Assembly (NCBI GenBank): GCA_015179045.1
Contig: WHUZ01000140.1
Location: forward strand, 1-64,000
Direction: 5' to 3'
Length of the DNA: 64,000 bases
Source of the DNA: Kalaharituber pfeilii
Taxonomy: Eukaryota; Ascomycota; Pezizomycetes; Pezizales; Pezizaceae
Numbering within the stretch: the stretch's first letter is position 1; the number at the start of each line of letters is the position of its first letter. Shown here in pieces: positions 475 to 61,255 of the stretch. Below the pieces are notes generated by a model. The model had not been told where the DNA came from. It worked only from the letters and a program-made list of their open reading frames with translations, and did no database searches. A program made the position numbers and the translations under genes.

Positions 475-1909
475 CCTTCCAACTTGCCATACAATAGTGT
501 CAAGTGAGTAAGTTAAGATATATATATATATACAAATAACTAGACCACCTTTCAAGGCCAGTGGTGCATGCTTTGTTTCCTCTAAAAGCTCAGAGCATAA
601 TTAAGCATCCCACGACAGGGCGCACACAATACCACAATGCAGGTAACTACATACTCAACCTCAACGGTTTTTTGCACTGAGATGCCATGGAAATTTACGG
701 AAGAAACCATGTAGAATAACGGTATATGACAATTTCAACTGCAGTGATGATATGCGAGGCCGGGTTTTGCGCCTTTCCAGATGACCACAAGCTTATTACT
801 AGTTACCTAACAAATAGCAAGTTACAAGGGCAAACTATTAGATCCTCACTAGCCGCCCCTTATCATGCTTTTGATCCAAACCAAGGTTCTACGGAAGTCT
901 GTGAGATGTTTTGTGGTGCGTATGACAGAAACCCAGGCTTCAAGGCTTCAACGTTTAGGCATCTTCTCATCTTTCTCACTTACTTCTTCCAAATTATTAC
1001 CGTCAAGTTTTCTTCTTCCGATTAAAACACTTCTCACTTTCTCCCTGTTACGGTCGCAAATCGAACGCTAAGGCTGCCCTACTATTGTAGTAGATAAAAC
1101 CGTTTTTAAATTTGTAAGCTATCTGCATAGCTTTTAGTTGCCTTCTATATAGTAGGCAGTTGTAGATCTTAGCAGTTGCTTTTATTCTTAAAATGACTAA
1201 TCAATAATCTATCCCAGAGAAAATTCATCAAAAAGTACTGCCTAAGGTCAGCCTAGGAGGGTTTGTGACTTGACGGTAATAAATCATAGTATCGAACCTC
1301 GATGTAATTTGCTTGCAATAATGTAGGCTTCCCGCAAAAAACTCCCCCTTAGGAGCTCATGGCTGGATGTGTTTCTCCTAAGGAGAAATCTCCGTTGGCC
1401 ATCGATCTGCACGCCATCCCCTCTCCCCATATTCCGGACTAGGTCTTGATTTACGTTCAATGGGGCATAGTAATTGACGGCGGTAACATCCAATCACGTA
1501 TTTGAAATGTGAGATGTACTGGGTTCTCAGCTATAACGTCAGATTAGACGATCACGTTTACTCAGGGGTACTTGCTGTACAACGACCGCACTTAATCTCA
1601 ATATCCTATTGGTTTGACCCATCTACCACTGGTATACTACTATTTTCTATTCCATTAATAACATCACTTCCAACTCTCCCGATTGGGCATCTCCCGATCC
1701 TGGCTAGAAGTGTAGCGTATCGTAAGAAACCAGTCATGAATGAATATTAGCAATGCTGGCTCTTAGCTCGGGTATCGATATATTACACTCGAATTGTAAT
1801 GTTCCGACAGTATGTACGCAGATGAGATCCCAGGACGGCCCGCACTGGCAGCTGCTGAGAAGGCTTGCACCAGTACTATCAAATCCCGGCTCTCAAGTCC
1901 ATGGATACG
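475..1909. other. Non-genic stretch
   Basis: Only short open frames without recognisable protein character are present. A short TA run lies near 518-531. I see no splice-linked coding signal, tRNA or repeat that I can name. Confidence 0.5.
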
Positions 1910-1970
1910 CCCTGCCATGGCGAAAAGCTGCATGCGGGGTCACGTGAAATAAAAAAAAAAAAAAAAAAAA
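1910..1970 (+). mobile_element. Minute poly(A) retroposon insertion, 61 bp, with 15-bp TSD
   Basis: About 40 bases starting CCCTGCCATGGCG and including GCGGGGTCACGTGAAAT are followed by an uninterrupted run of 20 A. The whole is bracketed by two perfect copies of AAGTCCATGGATACG (1895-1909 and 1971-1985). A poly(A) end plus a duplication of variable length is the signature of target-primed reverse transcription. Related insertions lie at 36424, 36886 and, reversed, 41841; the same tail ends a longer element at 34263. No coding capacity. Confidence 0.85.
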
Positions 1971-1985
1971 AAGTCCATGGATACG

Positions 1986-32973: not shown

Positions 32974-34262
32974 TATTAGGCTATTACGCATGCTGGCCAA
33001 AAAAAAAAGCGCTAGCCCCTGACAAGATGATAATTGGAATTTCATGACATGGAGTAATGAGGTTATGAATACATTACGTGCGATACCGCGAGGTCCACAA
33101 GATGCCCTCATCCCACAGCTCAGCCCCAGGATGTGGGGGTACTCGCAGGCAGAGCTCAGCTCTTGCCTGCACGGACCAGAATAATATTCGAGTGCAAGGG
33201 GAAATAATGCAAGTTAATATAATTAATCTGACCATGCACTGCTCAAAGTGATTCCGGCACGAGGCTGATATACACTGCAGTATTGTAACTCTGCTTCGAG
33301 TACGTAAAAGTTTTATACAGGGTCTACCTTGGAATGTCCAATAGTTTCTGTACTGGGAAAAAATTGTGTGGATACCCACAGGTTGGAGTTCCGCCTGTGC
33401 GCAGGTACGTAAGGTTGCAGTTCTGCAGCATCGGAAAATAGAATTTCCGGCTACCGGTAGTGGACCTTCAGGGGAGAGATGAGGGTAAGTCTCAATCCAT
33501 GTCCATGTTCCACACATGCGTGAGATAAGCACGTTGCATGACGTTTATCATGGTTTGAAATTTTCATCTAATTGCGCTATAGTAACCCTTTTCTGCAATC
33601 GCATTCACAAAGGTCCGGCGTCTTTTTTCGTCGTGAAATAAAAAACGGGACAAACATGTTTTTTTGCAAATTGGGAAGGAGGAGGAGAGAGACGCGGAAG
33701 CGTATGACGCATGCACACTTGCAAGGAGAGTAGTATATAGATCCATGCAGTACTTGATTTCTTAACTTTGAAATGACAGACGGAACGCGCGTCTAAAAGA
33801 AACTGCGCATGACAAACTTGCATAGCAAATTGCGCAACAGGCTGAGATCACAAATTTTACTACTTCATATAGAGATTCCACCAATGCTCCAGCCCATCCT
33901 CCTTCCAGATACAGAAGGTGTTAGCGGGAGAAACTTATTGAGACAAAACCTATCGCTAACTTTTCGGATTCAATTCGCTGCTGGACCGCCACTTTAGGTC
34001 TCCGGTACCTCACGCATCATGCTGAGTCTATAGATGTAGTGCGGGGGAAAGCCCCGCTCCGGTCTGGGTTTTATGTTTCAGTAAGAATCTGAGGAGATAT
34101 CAAAAAGAGGGTAAGATCAAGTTCAAGATTATTAGTATATGGTTTTCATTACCCTTTTTCTGTACTAGGACCCGAAGGCTTCATCTTGAATCTTTACCAC
34201 GCATCCTATTCTGCAGGGTAGAGTGAGTACAAAGATTAAATCTGTTCCAAAGTATCAAACAT
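32974..34262. other. Non-genic region
   Basis: No gene supported. A 152-codon minus frame at 33074-33532 has no recognisable feature. The last nine bases (34254-34262, ATCAAACAT) are the probable target-site duplication of the next element. Confidence 0.4.
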
Positions 34263-34639
34263 GAAGTGGGTGGAACAACAGGAGAACGGGGAGGAGGTGG
34301 AAGTCCTGGAATAGCTACTCCATTCAGTGAAGGGGTGAGAGGGGGGGGGAGGGGGGGGCATTTCCTTTGTCAGATAGTTCAGGAACTCCTTTGGGTGGAG
34401 GCGGGGGGGGGGGGGGGGGGGTGAATTTTCGTTTGTAGAGCTGGTGGCGGAGGAAAGAACGAGGCTATTTTTATTTGCCGCGAGAGGTGCGGCGGGGAGG
34501 GGGCGGCCTTTTCGTATGTAGAGCAGGCGGTGGAAGAGTAGATAGAGATGCTTGCCTTCGAGCATCAAGGGTCTAGACCAAGGGGCCCTGCCATGGCGAA
34601 CAGCTGCAAGCGTGATATTAAAAAAAAAAGAAAAAAAGG
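34263..34639 (+). mobile_element. 377-bp poly(A) retroposon sharing the minute-element tail
   Basis: The right end reads CCCTGCCATGGCGAACAG, then GCAAGCGTGATATTA and an A-rich tail. ATCAAACAT occurs immediately left (34254-34262) and right (34640-34648), consistent with a 9-bp target-site duplication. The body is G-rich with long G runs and contains an internal near-duplication (around 34430 and 34513, both with TGTAGAGC). The proline-rich minus-strand frame here is an artefact of the G runs. The tail combines the CCCTGCCATGG start of the minute elements with the GTGATATTA end seen in the LINE tails. The 5' boundary depends on a short duplication and is the weakest part. Confidence 0.55.
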
Positions 34640-34963
34640 ATCAAACATATCAATAAGTTGCAGATTGTGCTAATATGCTTTTTGGGCTTGTGTGGGATGC
34701 GAAGTTGGTAGAGATGTCCTAACGCACTGAATGGGACCCAAATCTACTGCTGTGAGAGGGGTCCATAAACTTTCATTTCATTTTGTATGTTCCAAGAACC
34801 TAATGCCGAAATACAATAATCGATCGAATAATTTCGGCTGAGCGGGGGGTTTCCCTCCCATGATCACGTAGGCCTCTTGAAGGAATGTTAGTTCTAAGCG
34901 CATTGCTATACATGATCTATATTACATGGATTACGTTGTGCATGAAATTGACCTCATGCTGGT

Positions 34964-35601
34964 TTTTTTTTCTTTTTTTAATATCATTACTCGCGTCTCG
35001 CCCTACGGGCTATGGCGAGATTAAGTACACAGGAAATGTAAAAGAATAAAGGGGAAAGGACATAAAGTGGATAACACCCATTCACCGCTTCGCTCCTTCA
35101 AGAAACAAGTTCCCGGAAGATGAGGATATTGAATCCCCTAGCGTCCCGCCCACTTCATCAGTTCCATCAGCGGGTCTCTCTCCCCCTCGCCCCCTCCGGG
35201 GGCGTGTCAGTGCCTCCAATCCTCCTGGCAATCTTTCCCTCCACACCCGGCATCTGTCCCATAGGTGCGTAGTCGTCTCCTCCTCTTCGCCGCACCACCT
35301 GCATTCTGGTCCGTCCACCTTGCCTATCCCGTATTTCCACGCTCGTATGCCTTTGCCCCCCAGTAGCCCCGCCAGTGTCCCCGTTTCGTGACCGAGTCTC
35401 AGTAGGGGCTGATAGCCTAGGCTCACCCTGTCCCTTTCCTTTGCTCGCTGGGCCATCGCCAGCTCGTTCTGGTACTGTAGGAAGGTGCCGATTCTGGCTG
35501 CCTTGTCAGCCTCCTCATTACCTTTTAAGCCTTTGTGCCCTTTGACCCATAGTATGGCCACGTCAAGCCCCCCCTCCACCACCCTGCGCTCCCAGGCCCT
35601 T
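34964..35601 (-). mobile_element. 5'-truncated Tad-like LINE copy with RNase H region
   Basis: A minus-strand copy ending in the conserved LINE tail (CTCGCCATAGCCC, a GCCC-loop-GGGC hairpin, then GCGAGTAATGATATTAAA and an A-rich tract at about 34964-34981). CTCATGCTGGT (34953-34963) and CTCATGTTGGT (35602-35612) bracket it: an 11-bp duplication with one change. The coding part begins exactly at the left boundary, so the element was truncated on insertion inside the ribonuclease H region. Confidence 0.85.
35082..35601 (-). pseudogene. LINE ORF2 C-terminal fragment: RNase H end and zinc-knuckle tail
   Basis: The frame runs open from the truncation point to a stop at 35082 (173 codons). It contains WVKGHKGLKGNEEADKAAR, the last part of a ribonuclease HI domain, where this motif carries the final metal-binding aspartate. 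It then has a Cys/His cluster (C-x2-C followed by H and C, CRWCGEEEETTTHLWDRC) typical of the C-terminus of LINE polyproteins such as Tad and I-type elements. The rest of the polyprotein is absent because of 5' truncation, so it cannot encode a working enzyme. The intact frame suggests the insertion is not very old. Confidence 0.85.
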
Positions 35602-35612
35602 CTCATGTTGGT

Positions 35613-36415
35613 TAGATGTGTCAGATGTGCCAGCTTACACTACTTCGATTGGCGGTGCACTATTTTTTAACCCAAGAGAAGGTAAATTCAAGCGGGAAGT
35701 ATGCAATTGGATGCCTTGTTGTTATACTAATGAAATAAGCATGCGCAGTACTGGAGCCTGAGACAACCACAGTGCTCCGCGGAGAGTGCGCGGAAATTTT
35801 TTTTCCCTCATTTTTATGTGGGATGTTTTCTTTTGGTAGGGGCGCAAGCACGGTGGAGGTGTATGTAGACAAAGGACTAAGTATCGTAAGAGATATAAAG
35901 TTAACCATCTTGCTAAAACTGCAATTGTGGTGTTTTGTAGTCGTAGCTTGAGCTTTCCAGGCCCCACCTAGATATATACTAAGTTCTTGTCGATCTGATT
36001 GAGCTCTTGTGGCAAATTGGCATTCCGAGACTAGCTAAGCTTCGTTCTCAGCTAAGTTTGTTCACAGCTCTGTCCTTCCTATTTCGGTATCTTGGCGAGA
36101 TCAACAGCTATGTCAGTTACGTAGGTACCTAGATATAACCACCGTAAACCATTTATCTCACCTCGCCCGAGCCTCCTGTGGGTGAGTACACTCTTCAATT
36201 TAAATCTAAAGAAAAAAAAAAAAAAAAAAAATTTATAAAACAGAAAGGCAATATTTTGCCAATTTCATATCTAATCAGTGTAGGAATGAGTTGTAAGTTA
36301 ATAACGGGGCCTTCGGCGTTGCCACTAAGTTTCAAACTTACCCCTAGTGGTGTACCTTTCACGGAAAAGGTATTCATACGTAATCCTGGATGGTCCGGAT
36401 TCCAAACCTTGAAGA
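35613..36415. other. Non-genic region
   Basis: No supported gene. Contains an A-rich run near 36211-36231. Nothing else that I can name. Confidence 0.4.
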
Positions 36416-36423
36416 ACCCCCGC

Positions 36424-36490
36424 GCCCTGCCATAGCGAACAGCTTCAAGCGGGGTTACGTTATTTTTTTTTTAAAAAAAAAAAAAAAAGT
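36424..36490 (+). mobile_element. Minute poly(A) retroposon insertion, 67 bp, with 8-bp TSD
   Basis: Starts GCCCTGCCATAGCGAACAG, continues with CTTCAAGCGGGGTTACG and ends in a T run followed by about 16 A. ACCCCCGC occurs on both sides (36416-36423 and 36491-36498). The unique part is about 40 bp, matching the copies at 1910 and 41841 and beginning at the same motif. Confidence 0.78.
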
Positions 36491-36885
36491 ACCCCCGCAG
36501 TAGCCTTATCAGAGAATTTCTCTTACGCATGGAAGCACCACTCGGGGGGTGCAGGTGAAGAGAGAGATACGGATGAAGGATAAGGTACAGATGAAGAGAA
36601 GGGGCCGGATTTATCTGTCTTGGAGTAATAGAAAATCGGTGGCGGGGTTGCGCAAAGATTTTTTTTCCGATCGATAAGAATTCTCGTTACAAGAACATAT
36701 ATGACTAAGCAGCAAAAATAAGAATAATGCTACTAACCAAGATATTATATTGTATGAGGGACCGGACCTCATCTTATAGCGAATATATTCTGACACCGGC
36801 TGATAACGGGAGTATACTGTATACTACTTTCTCCATACACACCTAGTTATCGTAAACCAAAAAGCTCTCCGTTACCTATCACCTA

Positions 36886-36949
36886 TCCCTGCCATAGGCT
36901 GGTGGTCTGTACGCGGGGTTATTGTGACCCCCCCTACCACCCCAAAAAG
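36886..36949 (+). mobile_element. Divergent minute retroposon, 64 bp, with 11-bp TSD and very short A tail
   Basis: Bracketed by perfect copies of CCTATCACCTA (36875-36885 and 36950-36960). Begins TCCCTGCCATAGG and contains ACGCGGGGTTATTGTGA, clearly related to the minute elements, but carries a different middle, a C-rich 3' part and only five terminal A. Confidence 0.72.
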
Positions 36950-37129
36950 CCTATCACCTAACAAACTCAGGGTAACAACCAAAAAAATCTAAGCACGTGC
37001 CGACCAATCCAACCCAGTCCGCGCAAAGTAACTCTTGGCTCTATAATAGCTTAGAACTACATTTTTATTATGTACTGATGGGTTAGCTCACAGGCTCTCA
37101 TTGACCTGCTCCACACGCCCCACCCCTCC

Positions 37130-37600: not shown

Positions 37601-40600
37601 TGGTTTTAACATATTGTGAAATATATCCTGCACCTCAATTTGCATGACATGGTGTAGTTGTTGGAGGAAGGACGGAGTCTTGATTAATTGAAGTTCGAGA
37701 CCTATTTATAATTGAGATCTCGAGTACAAAGAGAATATAGATATTTCCAAATAAGGAATGGAAATACAAGTCACGTGTATTTAACTTGATGCTCACATGA
37801 CTTTGGAAAATATCTAGAAGTATTAAGAGTAAAGAGCGTAGAGGCAGAAACATCCAGAATACATGATGTATGACAGACGAATACATGACGTATGAGAGAA
37901 CTAGAAAGTGGTAGAACATTACAGAATGATATAGAAGAATAAAGCCTGGTGGAAAGATTGGACGTTGCACTATACCATTTTCAACAGTAGTGTACTGAGA
38001 TATATCTAATTAGGCAATAGAGAACCTCTGCTTATAAAATTAGACACAGAGCAGCTAGATCACCGATGAGTTTAATTACACATTACCATGTGCCGGTGAT
38101 CCTATATACCAAGTTTGGTGCTGACATGAGTATTGGAGCAGAAGTACCGACTGAAAATATTCGGAAATAGCAGCAACTGACCGAGGCCATATTCTCGATC
38201 ACCGGACAGGCTATTGGGAAGCGGAAAAAACCTACAAATCACCCTTGGCCCGGCGGCCTCGGAGGCGACACTCGAATACGGGGGACAGCACGGACAACGA
38301 CACAGTCGAAGAAAGCGACACTTTCGAACGGATTTCAGCTCACTCACTTTCGCCCTCATCCTCAACGAACCCTCAGCGACGACACACCTCACTCAACACC
38401 CCAGGCCGCCAAAGCAAGAAAGTCTTTGAGCTCCTGGACTAAGATGGAGGCCGAATTAGTCATATTGAAGAGCACCTACAGTACAATCAAGGTGAAAGCG
38501 ACGATACCAGACACATACGATTCAACAATCACGGCCCAGGCCAAATTGGAGGGCACTGTCAGGGGAAGGTGAAGGTGGCACCGGGAAAGGGTGCATAACT
38601 GGAGGGCACTGGTTGCCGGATTGGGAAGGAATGCTGCGGGTAGCCGGGGAGGTGTTCTGCCCTTCTCCTGAAGAAGGACACCTAAGAATATACAACATCT
38701 CATCTTTTCGTTGTGGCTCCTGCGTAAAGGTGACCCACAATAGGCACAATCCTGGACACTTACGAGGACAGCTCAGACGAGGAGGGCTCGGTAGCTACAG
38801 TGGTACCAGAAACATAGGCACCACAAAGGGGTACAGACACTGGCGGGGACAACTCCGAATTCACGGTAATACCCGCAATGAGATATCAGCCAGCGACGAC
38901 AGAACCGCGCCTGGGAACAGAGCCTAGCGGAGGTTTATACACACACCCACCTCTCCCCAACATCGCACCCAACGTGACCCCATCCTCGAGCACACAAGTG
39001 CAAGCATACAGACCAGGCACCCACTCAGGGCTGCCGACTATGTGATCCCGGAGTTTACACCATACGGGGCAGACTGGGACGACGTCATGTGGTGGAGACA
39101 GGAGAAAAGGAGAAAGAGGCTGAGGAGAGGGCCAGGCGAGCTGAGAAAGAGTAGAGGACGATATTGGGATAGCGAAGGGCCCTAGTCAGGGCCTGGACCA
39201 GGGGGGAGTAGAAATGGAACAAGAGCTGGAAGAGAAAGCATCGCTGGATAGGTATACAAGAGAAGGGCTAGTAAGAGCAATGTGGGGACTGTTGGGTGAG
39301 GCCTACGACCAGGTAGAATGGGAAGAGGAAGAGAAGGCTGAAAAGAGATGGTACCCAAGTAAGAGAGAGGTGCCAGCCCGTATCGACACCATGGCCAGCG
39401 ACCACAGGGCTACTACAGGCCTGATAGTAAACTTTGGAACGATTTCGGAGGATTCAGAGAGGATTCTCAGAGACAGATGGCTGAGGTCAAAGCCCAGCTT
39501 GACGGGCTCAAGGAGAGACCAGCGCCAGAAACAACACCCATGCCAGCAGAGAAGCAAACACGGTTTCAAGACCCAGTAGCACCAATAGCAGCCCCAGCGG
39601 CAGTAGCCACCTTCGAGACCATGGCAGAAGCGGGGAAGATGGAAGGCCTTGACTTCGGTGGGATGGACGACAGAAGACATGCAGCAGAGACAAAGAGACT
39701 GAGATGTGAGGAAGCACAAAAGGGAAATGAGAACAAGGGGAGGGAAGGGAGCAGAGGCCTGCAAGTGCTGCAAGAAGAGACAGAAGAGCATTCGATGGAG
39801 TGGACACCGACCCCGGCCCCTAATGTCCCACGGACTGAAAAGCAACCAACTCAAGCATCCGGCGACATGCCAGCCGAAAACGAGCCAGCTTTTAACAGCC
39901 CGAAAGCCCAACCTTCCCCATCACCTGGGGCCCCGAACGGACCAAAAGGAACAATACAGGATAGGCCACATACGACCACACACCGAAAGGGTACAACTCC
40001 AGCCACGAAGGCCAACCCAGGCCCCAAGCCTGCAGTAGGCTATGGCAAGCTAGAGTTTTCGGAACCCAAAACTGGATGGAGATAAATGAGCTTCCAAACT
40101 CTCGGGAAGTCAGAGAACACAGAGAAAAGATGAGGGTCAGAATTAGTAAAGGCCTAGGAACAGAAGCCCCATACCGAGTAAGGGACACAGTGCTAGACCC
40201 AAACTTTCCAAGGGAGACAATCCTCCTCATGGAAGACACGCAATTCAAGACCGGTGAGGAAGTTAGCACCACTAGAAAGTGTAGTCAGGGGAGGACACCT
40301 ATACCTGAAGGTAGACTAGAACCACAGAATGGTTGAACTAGTCACATTCAACATTAACACGAAGAAATCCCTCTAGAGGCTAGAAAAGGATCTTAGAGTC
40401 GAAAACCCCGATGTCCTTTCTGGAAGGTCCGTGAGAAGACTAGCAGATTACCAGATCCCAGTCAAAGCAGCAAACAAGGCAGTCTTCATGTTCGTCTCAG
40501 ATGGTGTAATAGAACTACTGAAAGCAGGTTTTCTCTTCAGAGGTACAAAGATCAAGATAAGGCTCAGAACAGACTTGGAGAACGAGAAATCTGGAAGCGC

Positions 40601-40618
40601 AAGAAGATATAGATATAC

Positions 40619-40730
40619 TGTAGTTAGTGACGCAGTTGTTAAGTTTTCCTTTTAAATAAACCCTCGCCATAGCCCATAGGGCGGTATGCGAGTATTGATA
40701 TAAAAAATAATAATAATAATAATAAACAAA
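40619..40730 (+). mobile_element. 112-bp truncated LINE tail nested in LINE copy A
   Basis: Bracketed by AGATATAC (40611-40618 and 40731-40738). Holds only a 3' untranslated end: CCTCGCCATAGCCC, the GCCC-ATA-GGGC hairpin, TATGCGAGTATTGATAT, then an A/AAT-rich tail. Excision reconnects the ORF1 frame of the host LINE on both sides. Confidence 0.85.
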
Positions 40731-41785
40731 AGATATACAGCACCAGGCAGATACTGCAGACATTTTATCATATGCCAGGTTATAGAATAGATACCCAAGC
40801 AATGATACCTCCCCGACTGGCTCAAAGGCTCTCCACGTAGACGGGAATACGAGGAGGCGATGAACCTGAATAAGAAACCCTTTGCAGAAACATGCCAGTG
40901 CTGCGGAACAAAAGGAAGACATGAGAGAGAGTGCAAGAGAGCCAACACATCCCCGCCCGAGAACACCAGGGTCTGCAAGAGAGGCATGTTAAAGATCGCA
41001 TGCTGGAATGTAGAAAGGTCGGCGATATGTACGGATCTGGTATTGCAGGAGGCAGCAGATGATAAAGTAGATATTGTTTCATAAGAGAGAACTGGAGAGC
41101 ACCAGGAGGGGGAATGACTTTTCATCCATCATATACACCCAAGGAGGACAGGAAAGTGGCAGCTTATATATGGAAAGACAGGGTAGACGGCTTAAGGGTC
41201 CATGGCCAGGGTGGATATATAGTACTGGAGCTAAGAGAGAGGCGGATAGCAGGAGTCTACTGGAACAAAGAGACAAAGATTCAAAAAGAGCTAGAAGAAA
41301 TAAGTATGGTAGACATAGTCATAGGAGACTGCAACAGCAATGACAGAGAATGGTCGAGCAAACATGACACAAGGGGAAGAACGCTTAGGGAAAAGCTGGA
41401 GAGTATCGGACTAACCCAGCAGATCAGAAAGGGAACAATAACTTGGACCCCAGTTGTCGAAGGTATAACGAGAAATGCACTACTGGGCCTAGTATTCACC
41501 AGGTCTAGAGACTAAGCCAAGGCGGGACCACATAGATTGCCTGCTCAGATCATGCCATGGTCAAAGGAAGACTGCATTAGGTAGTCGAGAACACAAGAAC
41601 AATTATAATCACGAACTGAGAAAGATAGGAGGAGTTTGTAGACAGGTGGAGTGACATACTACTAAGAGAGGGGATGAATGGATATGAGATACTGAAGACC
41701 TCAGTAGCCAGTTCATGAAGCAAGCCAGAATCAGAGAGGTCTAAGAGATAGTTTGATAAGGAGGTGAAGGAAGCAAGAAAACAGG

Positions 41786-41841
41786 TTTTTTTTTTTTTTT
41801 TTTTTCACGTGACCCCGCGTGCAGCTTTCTGCCATGGCAGG
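41786..41841 (-). mobile_element. Minute poly(A) retroposon, 56 bp, nested in LINE copy A, 13-bp TSD
   Basis: Read on the minus strand: CCTGCCATGGCAG, then GCTGCACGCGGGGTCACGTG and exactly 20 A. GCAAGAAAACAGG is duplicated perfectly (41773-41785 and 41842-41854). The unique part is only 36 bases. Its first 14 bases, CCTGCCATGGCAGG, form a perfect palindrome. Removing the insert plus one duplication restores an open frame in the host LINE ORF2. Confidence 0.9.
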
Positions 41842-42437
41842 GCAAGAAAACAGGTAAAGAGTATCCTGCAGAAGAACATTGGAGCGTTTGCGGAGGGCAG
41901 AACGAGAGCATGGAGACTACTAAAAGAGATAATAAGAGACAAGAAGAGGACCTCTGGAAGGAATACCTGGAGGGGGATAAGGTCGAATCGCTATGGGATG
42001 TCTTTAGGCTTGCACTGGGCCCTTTCTGCCAGAGAGACCTAATACGTGTTATAGGTACGGACCAGGAGGTACGGACCAGGAGGTAGCTGAGCTATTTATT
42101 GAAAGGAACTTCATTATAGCAGATACGGCCAACTGGAGACCTATGCCACACCCAATAGGACTCCTCCTAGATCACGAGAAGGCAAGTAAGGAAATTGACA
42201 AGACTCTTAATAAAACAAAGTCAAGAGTAGCTCCCGGTCCAGACAATGTACAGTACGGCCTCCTAAAGCTCCTAAAAAGCACCACTGGGAAGTAGTCAGG
42301 GAGAAAATCGTGGACTACATAAATAGGGATTGCAGCTTTGCGAGAGGTTTCGACTTAGTGATGATACTCAAGAAGGGCAGAGACAGCCGTGAGGTTAGTA
42401 GCTGGAGGCCCATCATACTTCTCAATATGGTAGAGTG

Positions 42438-44592: not shown

Positions 44593-44854
44593 GTCCTTCT
44601 TTCTTTATATATATATATGTGCCGGGCCATTCGTAACAGTGATTCAGTCGCCACTGGCCCGGGCCAGTCACCCCTGGTCCGGGCTACTCAGTAGCACCAC
44701 GGTTCATAATTTTTTTTTCTGTACAAAGCACTATGCTGGCTGTCTTGGGAACAGTCATGGAGATGGAGACAGGTGAAGAGGAGGGGGCAGAGAGGAAGTA
44801 TGAGGAGGTGTAAGCAAGAGGGAATCTGTTTGGAATCCCGGCACCAGGCGCGAG

Positions 44855-45090
44855 TTAGACTCGGAGGAAGGTGGTTGCGGACAAGTGTGTACGAGACAGA
44901 TAGAGGAAGGAAATAGGAAGGTCACTGGGGTTATCTCTCCGATTTTTCACCCGCAGCAAGTACGAATTCCGCGGCACCACATGTATTTAGCCGCTTGCTC
45001 TTATTCTTTCGTTCTTTAATTTCAATAAAACACCTCGCCATAGCCCATAGGGCGGCATGCGAGTAATGAAATAAATAAATAAAAAAAAAA
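44855..45090 (+). mobile_element. 236-bp 5'-truncated LINE copy (3' end only), 12-bp TSD
   Basis: Perfect duplication ACCAGGCGCGAG at 44843-44854 and 45090-45101, sharing one A with the tail. The right end carries the family tail: CCTCGCCATAGCCC, the GCCC-ATA-GGGC hairpin, CATGCGAGTAATGA, then AATAAATAAAT and A10. The upstream 170 bp is 3' untranslated LINE sequence. It is longer than the copy at 40619 and shares about 70 bases at the 3' end with it. Confidence 0.88.
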
Positions 45091-45101
45091 CCAGGCGCGA
45101 G

Positions 45102-58005: not shown

Positions 58006-58209
58006 AAGGCGTTGCGCCCATGCTGTCCTGTGCTGGCGGCTGATCTGAAGGAGTATCTGCCCATATCAATTCAGCTTCGCCACGATATGCACCTGAACCT
58101 GACACCTCCGAAACAACGCGAGATTTGTATATCACACTCCGCGTTGATATCTTTGGCTTCTCCGACATCAAAATCAATAGTATCCCCGTTCAGGATATAG
58201 TCAGCCCCG

Positions 58210-61200
58210 ATGAGTAAACAAGTGAGCAAGAAATCATTTCTCAGCAGAGTTTTTCGGCATCGCTCCGCTCAGTCAAAATCAGTCTCCACAAAGCAACAAT
58301 TCTTGGCCACCGCCTATGATCCCCAGCAGACAGGGCCATCCACATCTTCCGTCTCTTCCTCCCTGAAGAAGACCTCCCTTTGTGCATCTGCTACCGCAAC
58401 ACCTGCTGCTGCATCACCTGCTGCCGCATTGATACCACTGCCACCCGCAAATGCTGACCCCAGCAATGGTTCCACAGCGTCGCGTGAACCACCGCTATCA
58501 TTGCTTTGCCAAAAGTCGCTTGTTATAGCACAGAGAAAGCTTTCAGAAAGGAAATTACCGCCCCTCGAGTTCACAAACCCTGCATCTCAATCGGCAAGTG
58601 AGATTGTTCAGTTGACAATAGAGGATCTGCAAAAAAGAATCGAGACCAAATCTCATAGTGGCAAAGCTGAGGAAATCCTCAAAACTTTCAACAGTTATGC
58701 AAGAATTGTAGATACAGCAATTCAACATAGTCCGGAGGTGACAGCTCTAGTTTGGGCAGGGGTTAGAGCAACATTGCAGGTTTGTGGGAATGCACTATTT
58801 GTTCATTTTTCATGGCAGTGACTGATGTCTATCAGGTTGCATTAAATTATATAGAAGTCCGGGAAAGTCTGGAGATTGTAACAGCTACTATTGTCACAAG
58901 GATGGCACAGTGCGAATTTTATGCTAGCATATATGCTGAGATGACGAAGAGTATGCTCTCTCCTACGTCAAAGCAGCACACCCTCCAAAAAACTCTGGAT
59001 TCCGCATTGCCAGAATTGTACGCTGCCATCCTAGTTCTCTCAGTGAAAGCACGCCAGTATTTTGACCCTTCCTCCGGTAAGACACTAGACTACGGCCTTT
59101 TAGATACAACCCATGCTGACTTCATCAGGTATCATAAAACTAGCAAACATGTTCAAACCCTTCGCTATCGAGTTTCAGCCATTCATCGATGATATCTCGG
59201 AAATAGAAAAGCGTGTTCGAGAATACGCAGATATGGCCACTATGGAAAGGATTATGGGTCTGTATCCCTACTTGGCTGATCTGAACCAGTCTAATAGTGT
59301 TCTGTAAGGGGATCGAAGAAGCTGGAACAGATGCACTGTCTGATCAATGATATTGAATCAAAACTAGCACCACTAACCAGAGTAGATGGTTTGTATACAC
59401 TTCAATAACAGAAATATAGTTCCTGACGAAAGACAGAAATTGTGCACATTACAGCCGAAAATTTGCGGGTGACGAAAGAAAGTCATTCAAAAGCAGAAGG
59501 TAGCGTATGTTCTATAGCGACTTGTTATTGGAGGGATACCTGACAGATATGCACAGAAGAGAGAGTCCAAAAACTCCTACAAATCCTATCACCACTGGAG
59601 TCTCCAAAGCGACATCAGGATGTACGGTCCAATAGGCTTGATGGTACAGGCATCTGGCTACTAGAACATGACCGTTTCTACCGCTGGCGTGACGCTATCA
59701 TACAAAATCCAAAGGACCGGATACTATTCTGTCATGGGAACCCAGGTGCTGGTAAAACAGTGATGAGGTACCTTTATATTCATGCTTACAAGATAGCCTG
59801 GGGTGATGTATTTGCTAATAATCTTGAGCATATAGTTCCATTGTGATTGATAATCTTATTGATCACTTCCGAAAGCAAGATAAAGTAGGCATTGCGTTTA
59901 TATACTGCGACTATCGAGATCAAGCGAACCAAACATTAGCAAATATCATTGGGAGTCTTCTCAAGCAACTTCTGACCACCGCTATATCACAAGTACCACA
60001 AGCTGTAACAAGCATGCTAGAGTCTATCCAAAAAGAGAATAGGAGAGTAGAGAGTTCCCATATTTCAGAGATGCTGAAGGTCACTTTAGCTGAACTAGAC
60101 TGCACATTTGTCTGCATAGATGAACTAGAGTCCCGCACTCTGACAACTCTCCTTAACTCACTTCGAAATGAATTCCATACTGCTCGCATTTTTGTTACTG
60201 GACGACCTCACATACAACCAGATGTTTATCAAGGCCTTGAGATACAACCGAAGGATGTAATTGAGATTCTAGCCCATCCAAATGATATTACAGCATACAT
60301 TACGCATGAGCTGGCGCTTGCACAGGCAAAAGATCGAGATGCTATGGATGAAATGCTTAAGGATAAGATTTTGAACATAATTGTAGACAGGTCGCAAGGA
60401 ATGTAAGTTAGACAATATGTTTCTCTCCTTACATTATTCATATATTGACTTAATGAATTGAGGTTCTTACTGCCTGTATTACAAATTCGGATGGTGCTTG
60501 AACAGCGGACCAAAAGGAAACGGCGTGAAGCACTTGAAAGATTACCTGAAGGCCTTGATGACGCCTTTACATGCATGATTGACAGAATACAGAACTCACT
60601 ACCAGGTGACAAGGAACTGGGTATGCGTGTGTTAATGTGGTTACATCTTGCCTACCGACCACTGAAGCTAGATGAGCTCAGGCATGCACTTGCAGTAGAG
60701 CGAGGTGATAAGGATTTAGATCGTGACAATATTCCTTCAAGGAATGCAATGCTAGATTGCTGCCTTGGGCTGGTCATTGTGGATGAGGAGACAGAGACTG
60801 TCCGCTTCGTCCATTACACATTGGAGGAATACTTCAAGCAGCATAGCAACAAGTTCTTCCCTAACCGCTACAGTATTGCCGCTGAAACTTCACTGACGTA
60901 TCTTAACTTCAACAAAGTTACATACTCCTGCAATGACTATGCTGACCTTACGCAACGAATGAGAGAGTTTGCTTTTTCAGAGTATGCAGCATGCTATTGG
61001 GGACACTATGCTCGCCAGCAAGGCAATAATTCTGAAGCTTTCTATCAACTTGGCCTCAACATTCTACAGGAGAGGAGCAACGCACCGCCATTTGCTTTGA
61101 GATGCAAACGGAGATGCGAAACTACTCTCCTATGTATAATTAAGGTATACCTAAATTCTGATGTAATTGAACTACTTGACTTAGTAGTTTGTAATAGTCT

Positions 61201-61255
61201 TATTTTCACTTATCCAATGTTGCGCAATATCCGGTTATGCGCAACATCCTGGTAG
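58210..61255 (+). CDS. NACHT-domain NOD-like receptor, eight exons, 879 aa model
   Basis: Exons: 58210-58779, 58836-59076, 59129-59261, 59309-59388, 59455-59499, 59557-59767, 59836-60402 and 60463-61255. All introns are 47-68 bp with GT-AG ends, every join keeps frame, and the sum is exactly 880 codons. Residues 1-140 are Ser/Ala/Pro-rich. Residues 150-330 are helical and resemble the DUF7708-type N-terminal region of fungal STAND proteins (VTALVWAGVRATLQ, then VALNYIEV). The P-loop GNPGAGKT is at 417-424, a Walker-B-like FVCIDE near 518-523, and an ITSRP-like FVTGRP near 548. A winged-helix-like region (LPEGLDDAF at 643) and a HYTLEEYF motif follow. Such proteins sense non-self or damage in fungi and trigger cell death or defence. 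It ends soon after a YWGHYA motif without ankyrin, WD40 or TPR repeats, so the sensor end is absent or lost. The third intron, with acceptor TAAG, is the least certain. Confidence 0.86.

Follow-up and report, generated by a model that had tools for sequence, protein, structure and literature searches.

Truncation of LINE copies at the 5′ end is usually put down to the RT falling off at random. The part of PMC3747384 available to us describes truncation at various positions, with lengths of 100-1,000 bp, and a table in it pairs the fungal SINEs Mg-SINE and SINE2-1_BG with LINEs. According to the accessible text of PMC5135761, an asymmetric internal loop or bulge is common to the 3′ stem-loops of stringent-type LINEs, and fungal Tad1 is listed there among the LINE/SINE pairs with a 3′ stem-loop. 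Here we analysed a window of 64,000 nucleotides of Kalaharituber pfeilii (contig WHUZ01000140.1, positions 1 to 64,000 of the forward strand) and searched the 78.03 Mb assembly. The window carries insertions of a minute retroposon, which is almost certainly the 3′-terminal hairpin (H1) plus the poly(A) of longer Tad-like LINEs. 'Tad-like' is used as a label for the domain content, and we presume that the clade name applies.

The four insertions that a sequence-only reading had reported are all present in the window, each with a perfect duplication, and they share a start one base before CCCTGCC. Copy 1 (1897..1985, plus strand) consists of the duplication GTCCATGGATACG (1897-1909/1973-1985), H1 (1909-1940), CACGTGA, poly(A) and the second duplication; the 15 bp claimed for this duplication is 13 bp unless two As of the tail are counted. 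In copy 2 (36416..36498, plus strand), the 8-bp duplication ACCCCCGC (36416-36423/36491-36498) encloses H1 (36424-36455), a T-run and then an A-run. Copy 3 (36875..36960, plus strand) belongs to family B and has a longer apical stem. It is bounded by the 11-bp CCTATCACCTA (36875-36885/36950-36960) and holds T + H1 (36886-36919) and a C-rich tail with five As at its end. Copy 4 (41774..41854, minus strand) comprises H1 (41843-41812), poly(A) and the duplication CCTGTTTTCTTG (41843-41854/41774-41785), previously given as 13 bp; its ends merge with the tail and the core and its length is 12-14 bp. The lengths of 8 and 11 bp agreed with the earlier ones. A clean poly(A) was seen in copies 1 and 4 only. 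The unique part, formerly put at 36-64 bp, is a hairpin core with ACGTGA-like bases of about 37-42 nt per copy, the larger figures taking in the tail. The A tails and duplications point to retroposition, and a DNA-transposon or tandem-repeat origin is therefore not preferred. Copy 4 is inserted into a decayed LINE body (40377..42295, plus strand), with the endonuclease-like part on one side and the RT-like part on the other; a CCHC motif and the RT start of this body were recognised by eye. The endonuclease-like part matched PF14529 under the cut-off (E 1.5e-5, 25.3 bits, cut-off 27.4), and the RT-like piece had no Pfam match. Elsewhere in the window, 58201-61255 holds pieces of a NACHT/ankyrin-type gene. 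Its only species-named relative was a protein from Tirmania nivea, 63% identical across 67% of the query.

When searching the whole assembly, CCCTGCCAT was found 5,685 times compared to 383 times for the reversed word, and the 3′ core GCGGGGTYAYGTGA was found 4,216 times compared to 1 for its reversed control. The combined pattern CCCTGCCAT-N(14-26)-GCGGGGTYAYGTGA gave 2,935 genome-wide matches (control 0). As both words occur far above their reversed forms, the insertions are not due to chance. On contig 1, 46 of the 56 listed GCGGGGTYAYGTGA places fell into the initial 600 kb of the 2.99 Mb, a distribution suggestive of gene-poor blocks. Sampled loci comprised the first CCCTGCCAT matches (L001-L008); the best matches to 60 nt of copy 1, a sample that favours hairpin-only copies (L009-L038); exact matches of an upstream-extension pattern (L039-L050 and L141-L160, one being left out as already L036); the 3′-anchored GCGGGGTYAYGTGA set, which holds the first 76 places on contigs 1 and 2 minus L039 and L040, both starting at the upstream hairpin H3 (L051-L120); contig 2 matches to the 16-mer of a second superfamily described below (L121-L140, one being left out as already within L116); and the upstream part of one LINE (L161).

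The parent LINEs of superfamily I are arranged in the order RT, RNase H, then the hairpins H3-H2-H1 and poly(A). Long copies run via H2, H3 and a short 3′UTR into an ORF with RNase H, and upstream of H3-H2-H1 this domain matched PF00075 with E 1.9e-12 in L047 and 1.5e-6 in L002. L161, which adjoins L047, has a broken frame and was searched in pieces; two RT pieces matched PF00078 (E 2e-7 and 1.6e-8). Endonuclease-like, RT and RNase H domains, as expected in this order for Tad1, were found in separate copies. LINE 3′-end sequence with RT, duplications and an A tail place the insertions among 5′-truncated LINE copies. One longer superfamily I copy, itself 5′-truncated, lies in the window (34263..~34637, plus strand). 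It contains the end of an RNase H ORF (by eye), the 3′UTR, H2 + H1 at 34562-34612 with a damaged 3′ arm of H1, and an A tail, and the 9-mer ATCAAACAT stands on either side of it (34254-34262 and 34640-34648; match by eye). The independent transcript of about 40 nt proposed earlier is not supported by these data, as longer parent LINEs, including this one, carry the same core. Since such a parent exists, no separate small gene is needed.

A true minute SINE, transcribed independently as about 40 nt from its own promoter or start site, would account for the constant start. It would also suit the genome-wide counts of CCCTGCCATGGCGAA, which occurs 2,087 times and is preceded by the LINE linker CAGGGR in 417 cases; the exact linker is absent from 1,670 of the 2,087 copies (about four fifths), among them a few long copies with mutated linkers. 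The linker together with the 3′ arm of H3 was present in 344 copies, the remaining 73 being mutated or ending in H2, and H3-H2-linker-H1 in exact form was found 1,010 times. About 39 nt leaves little room for a pol III promoter. We regard a minute SINE as very unlikely: separate start sites would be required for each of the two LINE superfamilies and for the H3 end, the hairpin variant CCTTGG is also found in the LINE tail of L095, no Rfam family reached gathering within the whole window, and the 37-42-nt core equals the LINE tails. In addition, the base directly before CCC (base -1), where it lay outside the duplication, was G in 38 of 39 copies of the pooled A/D class and in 2 unclassed copies, A in 7 of 7 family C copies and T in 2 of 2 family B copies. 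In long tails it is G in family A, A in C, T in the longer B copy L111 and mostly A in D. As this base differs by family, it was copied from LINE RNA, and the prevalence of A in long D tails indicates that the A/D-class hairpins come from A-type tails. No hairpin-only copy with the usual A of family D was seen in the pooled set, though D is a common tail. Since longer LINE copies terminate in the same sequence and base -1 varies with the family, an independent mini-SINE is not preferred. In family D, the copies L067, L079, L083, L093, L108 and L113 have H3-H2-H1 tails on copies of about 490-750 nt, some with weak duplications. In L067, L079 and L113 the tail is preceded by an ORF which, judged by eye, is similar to a LINE ORF1-like protein (VVHGIA..LGKVR..); two ORFs of this type were searched and gave no Pfam match. 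The short family D copies are possibly a half-LINE non-autonomous family. A similar ORF1-like ORF is located near a superfamily II tail in L071.

To score 5′ ends, a copy was called hairpin-only when its duplication ended between -6 and +12 from base -1. In the 3′-anchored sample, 36 of 74 copies were hairpin-only and 35 of these started within -3 to +4 nt of one point. Offsets from base -1 were -3 (2), -2 (1), -1 (5), 0 (16), +1 (8), +3 (2), +4 (1) and +6 (1), the negative values possibly reflecting chance overlap of duplication and core. Their duplications were 8-16 bp long (mean 12.5 bp) and the mean tail was 23 nt. The other classes were 1 H3-start, 24 longer copies, 11 'other' and 2 without a tail. 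By eye, L106 (scored 'other') and L072 (scored tail-less) look hairpin-only as well, and L057 ('other') seemingly has its 5′ end inside the hairpin. The 'other' class also holds the repeat artefact L094 and the duplicated-pair loci L062, L063 and L065, which L066 matches. L062-L066 (contig 1:178185-213846) represent two near-identical loci 35 kb apart with two tandem hairpins, a segmental duplication or nested event. L104 was a second H3-start in the pooled scoring, which together with L039 and L040 gives H3-starts in 4 of 76.

The pooled set held 89 partly selected copies whose scored duplication lay within 200 nt. Their 5′ ends fell at the foot of H1 in 67 cases, at the foot of H3 in 15 and elsewhere in 7; L015, L058 (overlap) and L094 among the latter look like artefacts. 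Truncation is therefore quantised at hairpin feet, two points taking 82 of the 89 ends within 200 nt, in a scoring that requires a CCCTGCC-like start, so that ends inside the hairpin are invisible, and that leaves copies without a scored duplication uncounted. The scatter along the element that is typical of 5′-truncated LINE copies is thus absent within this distance, whereas ends of longer copies are scattered further upstream. Among the 67 hairpin-only copies, 34 start exactly at -1 and 55 within one base of it, and the whole-genome counts suggest thousands more. The 15 H3-foot starts at or near AAGCC were from family A (13) and family C (2, including L159 with five extra bases). When 3′ flanks were swapped between copies of the 3′-anchored sample, a false duplication within 200 nt appeared in 22 of 709 trials. 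The constant 5′ end noted in the sequence-only reading is real and widespread, and the broad continuous range of ends that would have spoken against it was not found near the 3′ end. In L038, a family B-like hairpin copy (near 1501, minus strand) has received a hairpin-only copy of family A, whose duplication GAATGCGGGGTT lies in the older hairpin.

The three hairpins H1-H3 appeared in the MFE folds of a single copy per family (A, C and D). The predicted H2 stems are GGGU-CUAG-ACCC in A, GGG-CUUG-CCC in C and GGAC-UUCG-GUCC in D, and H3 is AAGCCUG-YCUC-CGGGCUU in A and most of C. Each of the two end points is no more than 1 nt away from the 5′ foot of a predicted stem, the position at which a trimmed template would end. 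The H1 stem started at -2 in three whole-tail folds and at -1 only in the isolated hairpin, and in family B base -1 (T) is unpaired. In 21 chosen rows, paired cells amounted to 95.4% (shuffled mean 91.4) and 23 cells were changed on both sides (8.9), whereas pairs with a change on both sides (5 vs 4.3) and further pair types (11 vs 15.8) were not above the shuffles. Two H2 pairs changed on both sides in these rows (GC 13/AU 7 and CG 13/UA 6). H1 of superfamily I is nearly invariant and showed no covariation, and single sequences folded little better than shuffles (z -0.88, -1.65, -0.97 and -2.01). A 3′ stem-loop of the stringent type, with an internal loop or bulge, is predicted in both superfamilies. 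The case for structure is based on H2, on superfamily II and on the coincidence, to within 1 nt, of two end points with two stem feet.

The sequence-only reading had offered as its alternative that the RT is halted by structure. In superfamily I this would mean that the RT comes to a halt at the H3-H2 domain once H1 has been copied, possibly with the H3 loop and the GGG linker paired in a pseudoknot. The major end does lie directly 3′ of this domain, three H3-H2 strings of 38-40 nt folded at -13.2, -12.9 and -12.2 (shuffles -10.8, -11.0 and -11.4), and the changes on both sides of H2 fit as well. The pair between H3 loop and linker was UA 13, CG 7 and UG 1 in the 21 chosen rows and was possible in 99 of 100 listed places (of 1,010; counted by eye), but the pseudoknot depends on this one varying column, and as its change follows family lines it may represent one or two events. 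The H3-foot end requires another roadblock. The superfamily II data described next fit such a halt poorly, and we consider it unlikely.

A scan for a duplication, a short unit and an A-run in the window and L001-L120 gave 94 units, of which 65 fitted a loose H1 expression. By eye, all of the remaining 29 except L094 look like superfamily I or like a second design, CTCGCCATAGCCCATAGGGCGGCATGCGAG-TAATGATAT with variants ATCGC..GCGAT, here called superfamily II. Its 16-mer has 2,675 genome-wide copies (control 0). In the window, a superfamily II LINE 3′ part (34981..35639, minus strand) carries an RNase H-like ORF (35082-35639), the hairpin CTCGCC..GCGAG with following bases (35020-34981) and an A tail. 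The ORF matched PF00075 just under the cut-off (E 1.6e-5, 25.5 bits, cut-off 25.8); the superfamily II RNase H frame in L015 scored 44.6 bits. The minus-strand RNase H ORF of L015 contains an apparent reversed insertion of a superfamily II hairpin (an F run, then HITPLVALGHG in translation). A 5′-truncated superfamily II copy (44843..45101, plus strand) has its hairpin and following bases at 45033-45068 and the duplication ACCAGGCGCGAG on both sides. An AATAAA-like motif was seen by eye just upstream of the 3′ hairpin, at 45024-45029 in the window and in several long superfamily II copies.

Among 67 sampled superfamily II copies with a tail, 35 had a scored duplication within 200 nt. Their ends lay within 3 nt of the hairpin foot (12), in or by the apical loop (7), at +7 (1) or further up (15, two of them doubtful); the 20 loci L121-L140 split into 4 foot, 3 loop and 4 further-up ends and 9 without a scored duplication. 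Foot clustering is thus weaker than in superfamily I. Starts within or next to the apical loop (GGGCGGC), with duplications, were seen in the superfamily II copies L008, L080, L081, L116, L123, L133 and L137. In the hairpin, 98.3% of cells were paired (94.6 shuffled) and 9 cells were changed on both sides (1.3), including CG 33/AU 5, while the two pairs with a change on both sides (1.1 expected from shuffles) did not exceed the shuffles. The 50 nt upstream of the hairpin were unstructured, with a mean MFE of -2.55 compared to -3.16 for mononucleotide shuffles (24 long copies). A halt of the RT at upstream structure thus fits superfamily I, where H3 and H2 lie just upstream, but not superfamily II, where 12 of 35 ends fall at the foot despite unstructured upstream RNA, and it does not fit as the sole cause.

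Abortive TPRT, in which LINE protein anchored on the 3′ hairpin would release after copying it, covers the hairpin ends of both superfamilies without any upstream structure, and the loop ends of superfamily II (7/35) fit a loss of the anchor. Binding of the ZfL2-2 ORF2 protein to its own 3′ stem-loop is described in the accessible part of PMC4176376. However, the hairpin would already be undone once its 3′ arm is copied, so that ends would be expected in the loop and not at the 5′ foot, and we think this course rather unlikely.

The best explanation overall is that LINE RNA was shortened to the protected hairpin at its 3′ end and the poly(A), and was then reverse-transcribed at new sites, which we give a probability of roughly 55%. 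For the trimmed-template step by itself the odds appear about even. Decay in the 5′ to 3′ direction, or a cut, would remove the LINE RNA as far as the hairpin, which would be protected by its own fold and by bound LINE protein. This protein would then nick DNA, prime on the poly(A) and copy as far as the 5′ end of the stub, which would be inserted, sometimes with one or a few untemplated bases added. The tiny element would in that case be a by-product and not a gene. Trimmed templates explain the ends at the 5′ feet of stems, the two points in superfamily I and the foot cluster in superfamily II without upstream structure. Extra 5′ bases (T, TG and similar) were found at some junctions. Non-templated addition is known for R2 RT, as far as the available text of PMC8857657 describes it, and the extra bases are of this kind and would fit addition by a non-LTR RT. 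Several observations count against trimming: the loop ends (7/35) and further-up ends (15/35) of superfamily II, the weak single-sequence folds (z -0.88 to -2.01) together with an H1 that lacks covariation, the H1 stem start at -2 in whole-tail folds with the unpaired base -1 of family B, and the absence of D-type hairpin-only copies. In addition, simple decay might give ends at the H2 foot, but the pooled set had none, with only L094 (+19, inside an ATT repeat) and L033 (+24) in that region. Trimming of the cDNA, by removal of a 3′ overhang up to a DNA hairpin, would likewise place ends at hairpin feet. The stems, however, keep U-G pairs (35/35 rows in H1 and 21/21 in H3), which would be mismatched in cDNA. 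Base -1 likewise would not pair there (it forms G.U in family A), yet it is included; trimming at this stage seems highly improbable.

If LINE RNA is the molecule that is trimmed, its decay may halt where protein binds the 3′ hairpin and leave a hairpin + poly(A) RNA of about 38 nt, a stable template whose copies outnumber those of its parent in one large family and form a genomic record of LINE RNA trimming. We propose this tentatively, at somewhat less than even odds. To our knowledge, such a retroposition unit of about 38 nt would be smaller than any known SINE. The start coincides with RNA structure, in the second superfamily in part, which makes it possible to test what determines the length of LINE copies. 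It also suggests the minimal tail that TPRT accepts, namely one hairpin and As. Repeat annotation with length cut-offs could miss this large class of insertions (4,216 copies of the 14-mer, long ones included, and 2,675 of the 16-mer).

A literature search, judged by titles and the starts of abstracts and with most subscription journals outside its coverage, returned no report of hairpin-only retroposons at fixed points. The chimeric retrogenes of the ascomycete Magnaporthe are likewise short, odd inserts made by a LINE, in the part of PMC2104539 available to us, but the copies read here show no fusion to another transcript. The fungal SINEs Mg-SINE, SINE2-1_BG and AfuSINE2 are also short and non-autonomous in the accessible descriptions, whereas no tRNA or 5S head was seen here. 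The tails of stringent-type LINEs (UnaL2, ZfL2-1/-2 and SART1) and of Tad1 have a 3′-terminal stem-loop with an asymmetric internal loop, as H1 does. Those tails belong to a LINE or to a headed SINE, while here the tail alone is the inserted unit. The insertions share LINE 3′ sequence, an A tail and target-site duplications with 5′-truncated LINE copies, but they are cut at discrete points, the hairpin feet, and in the commonest type of copy no more than about 38 nt remain.
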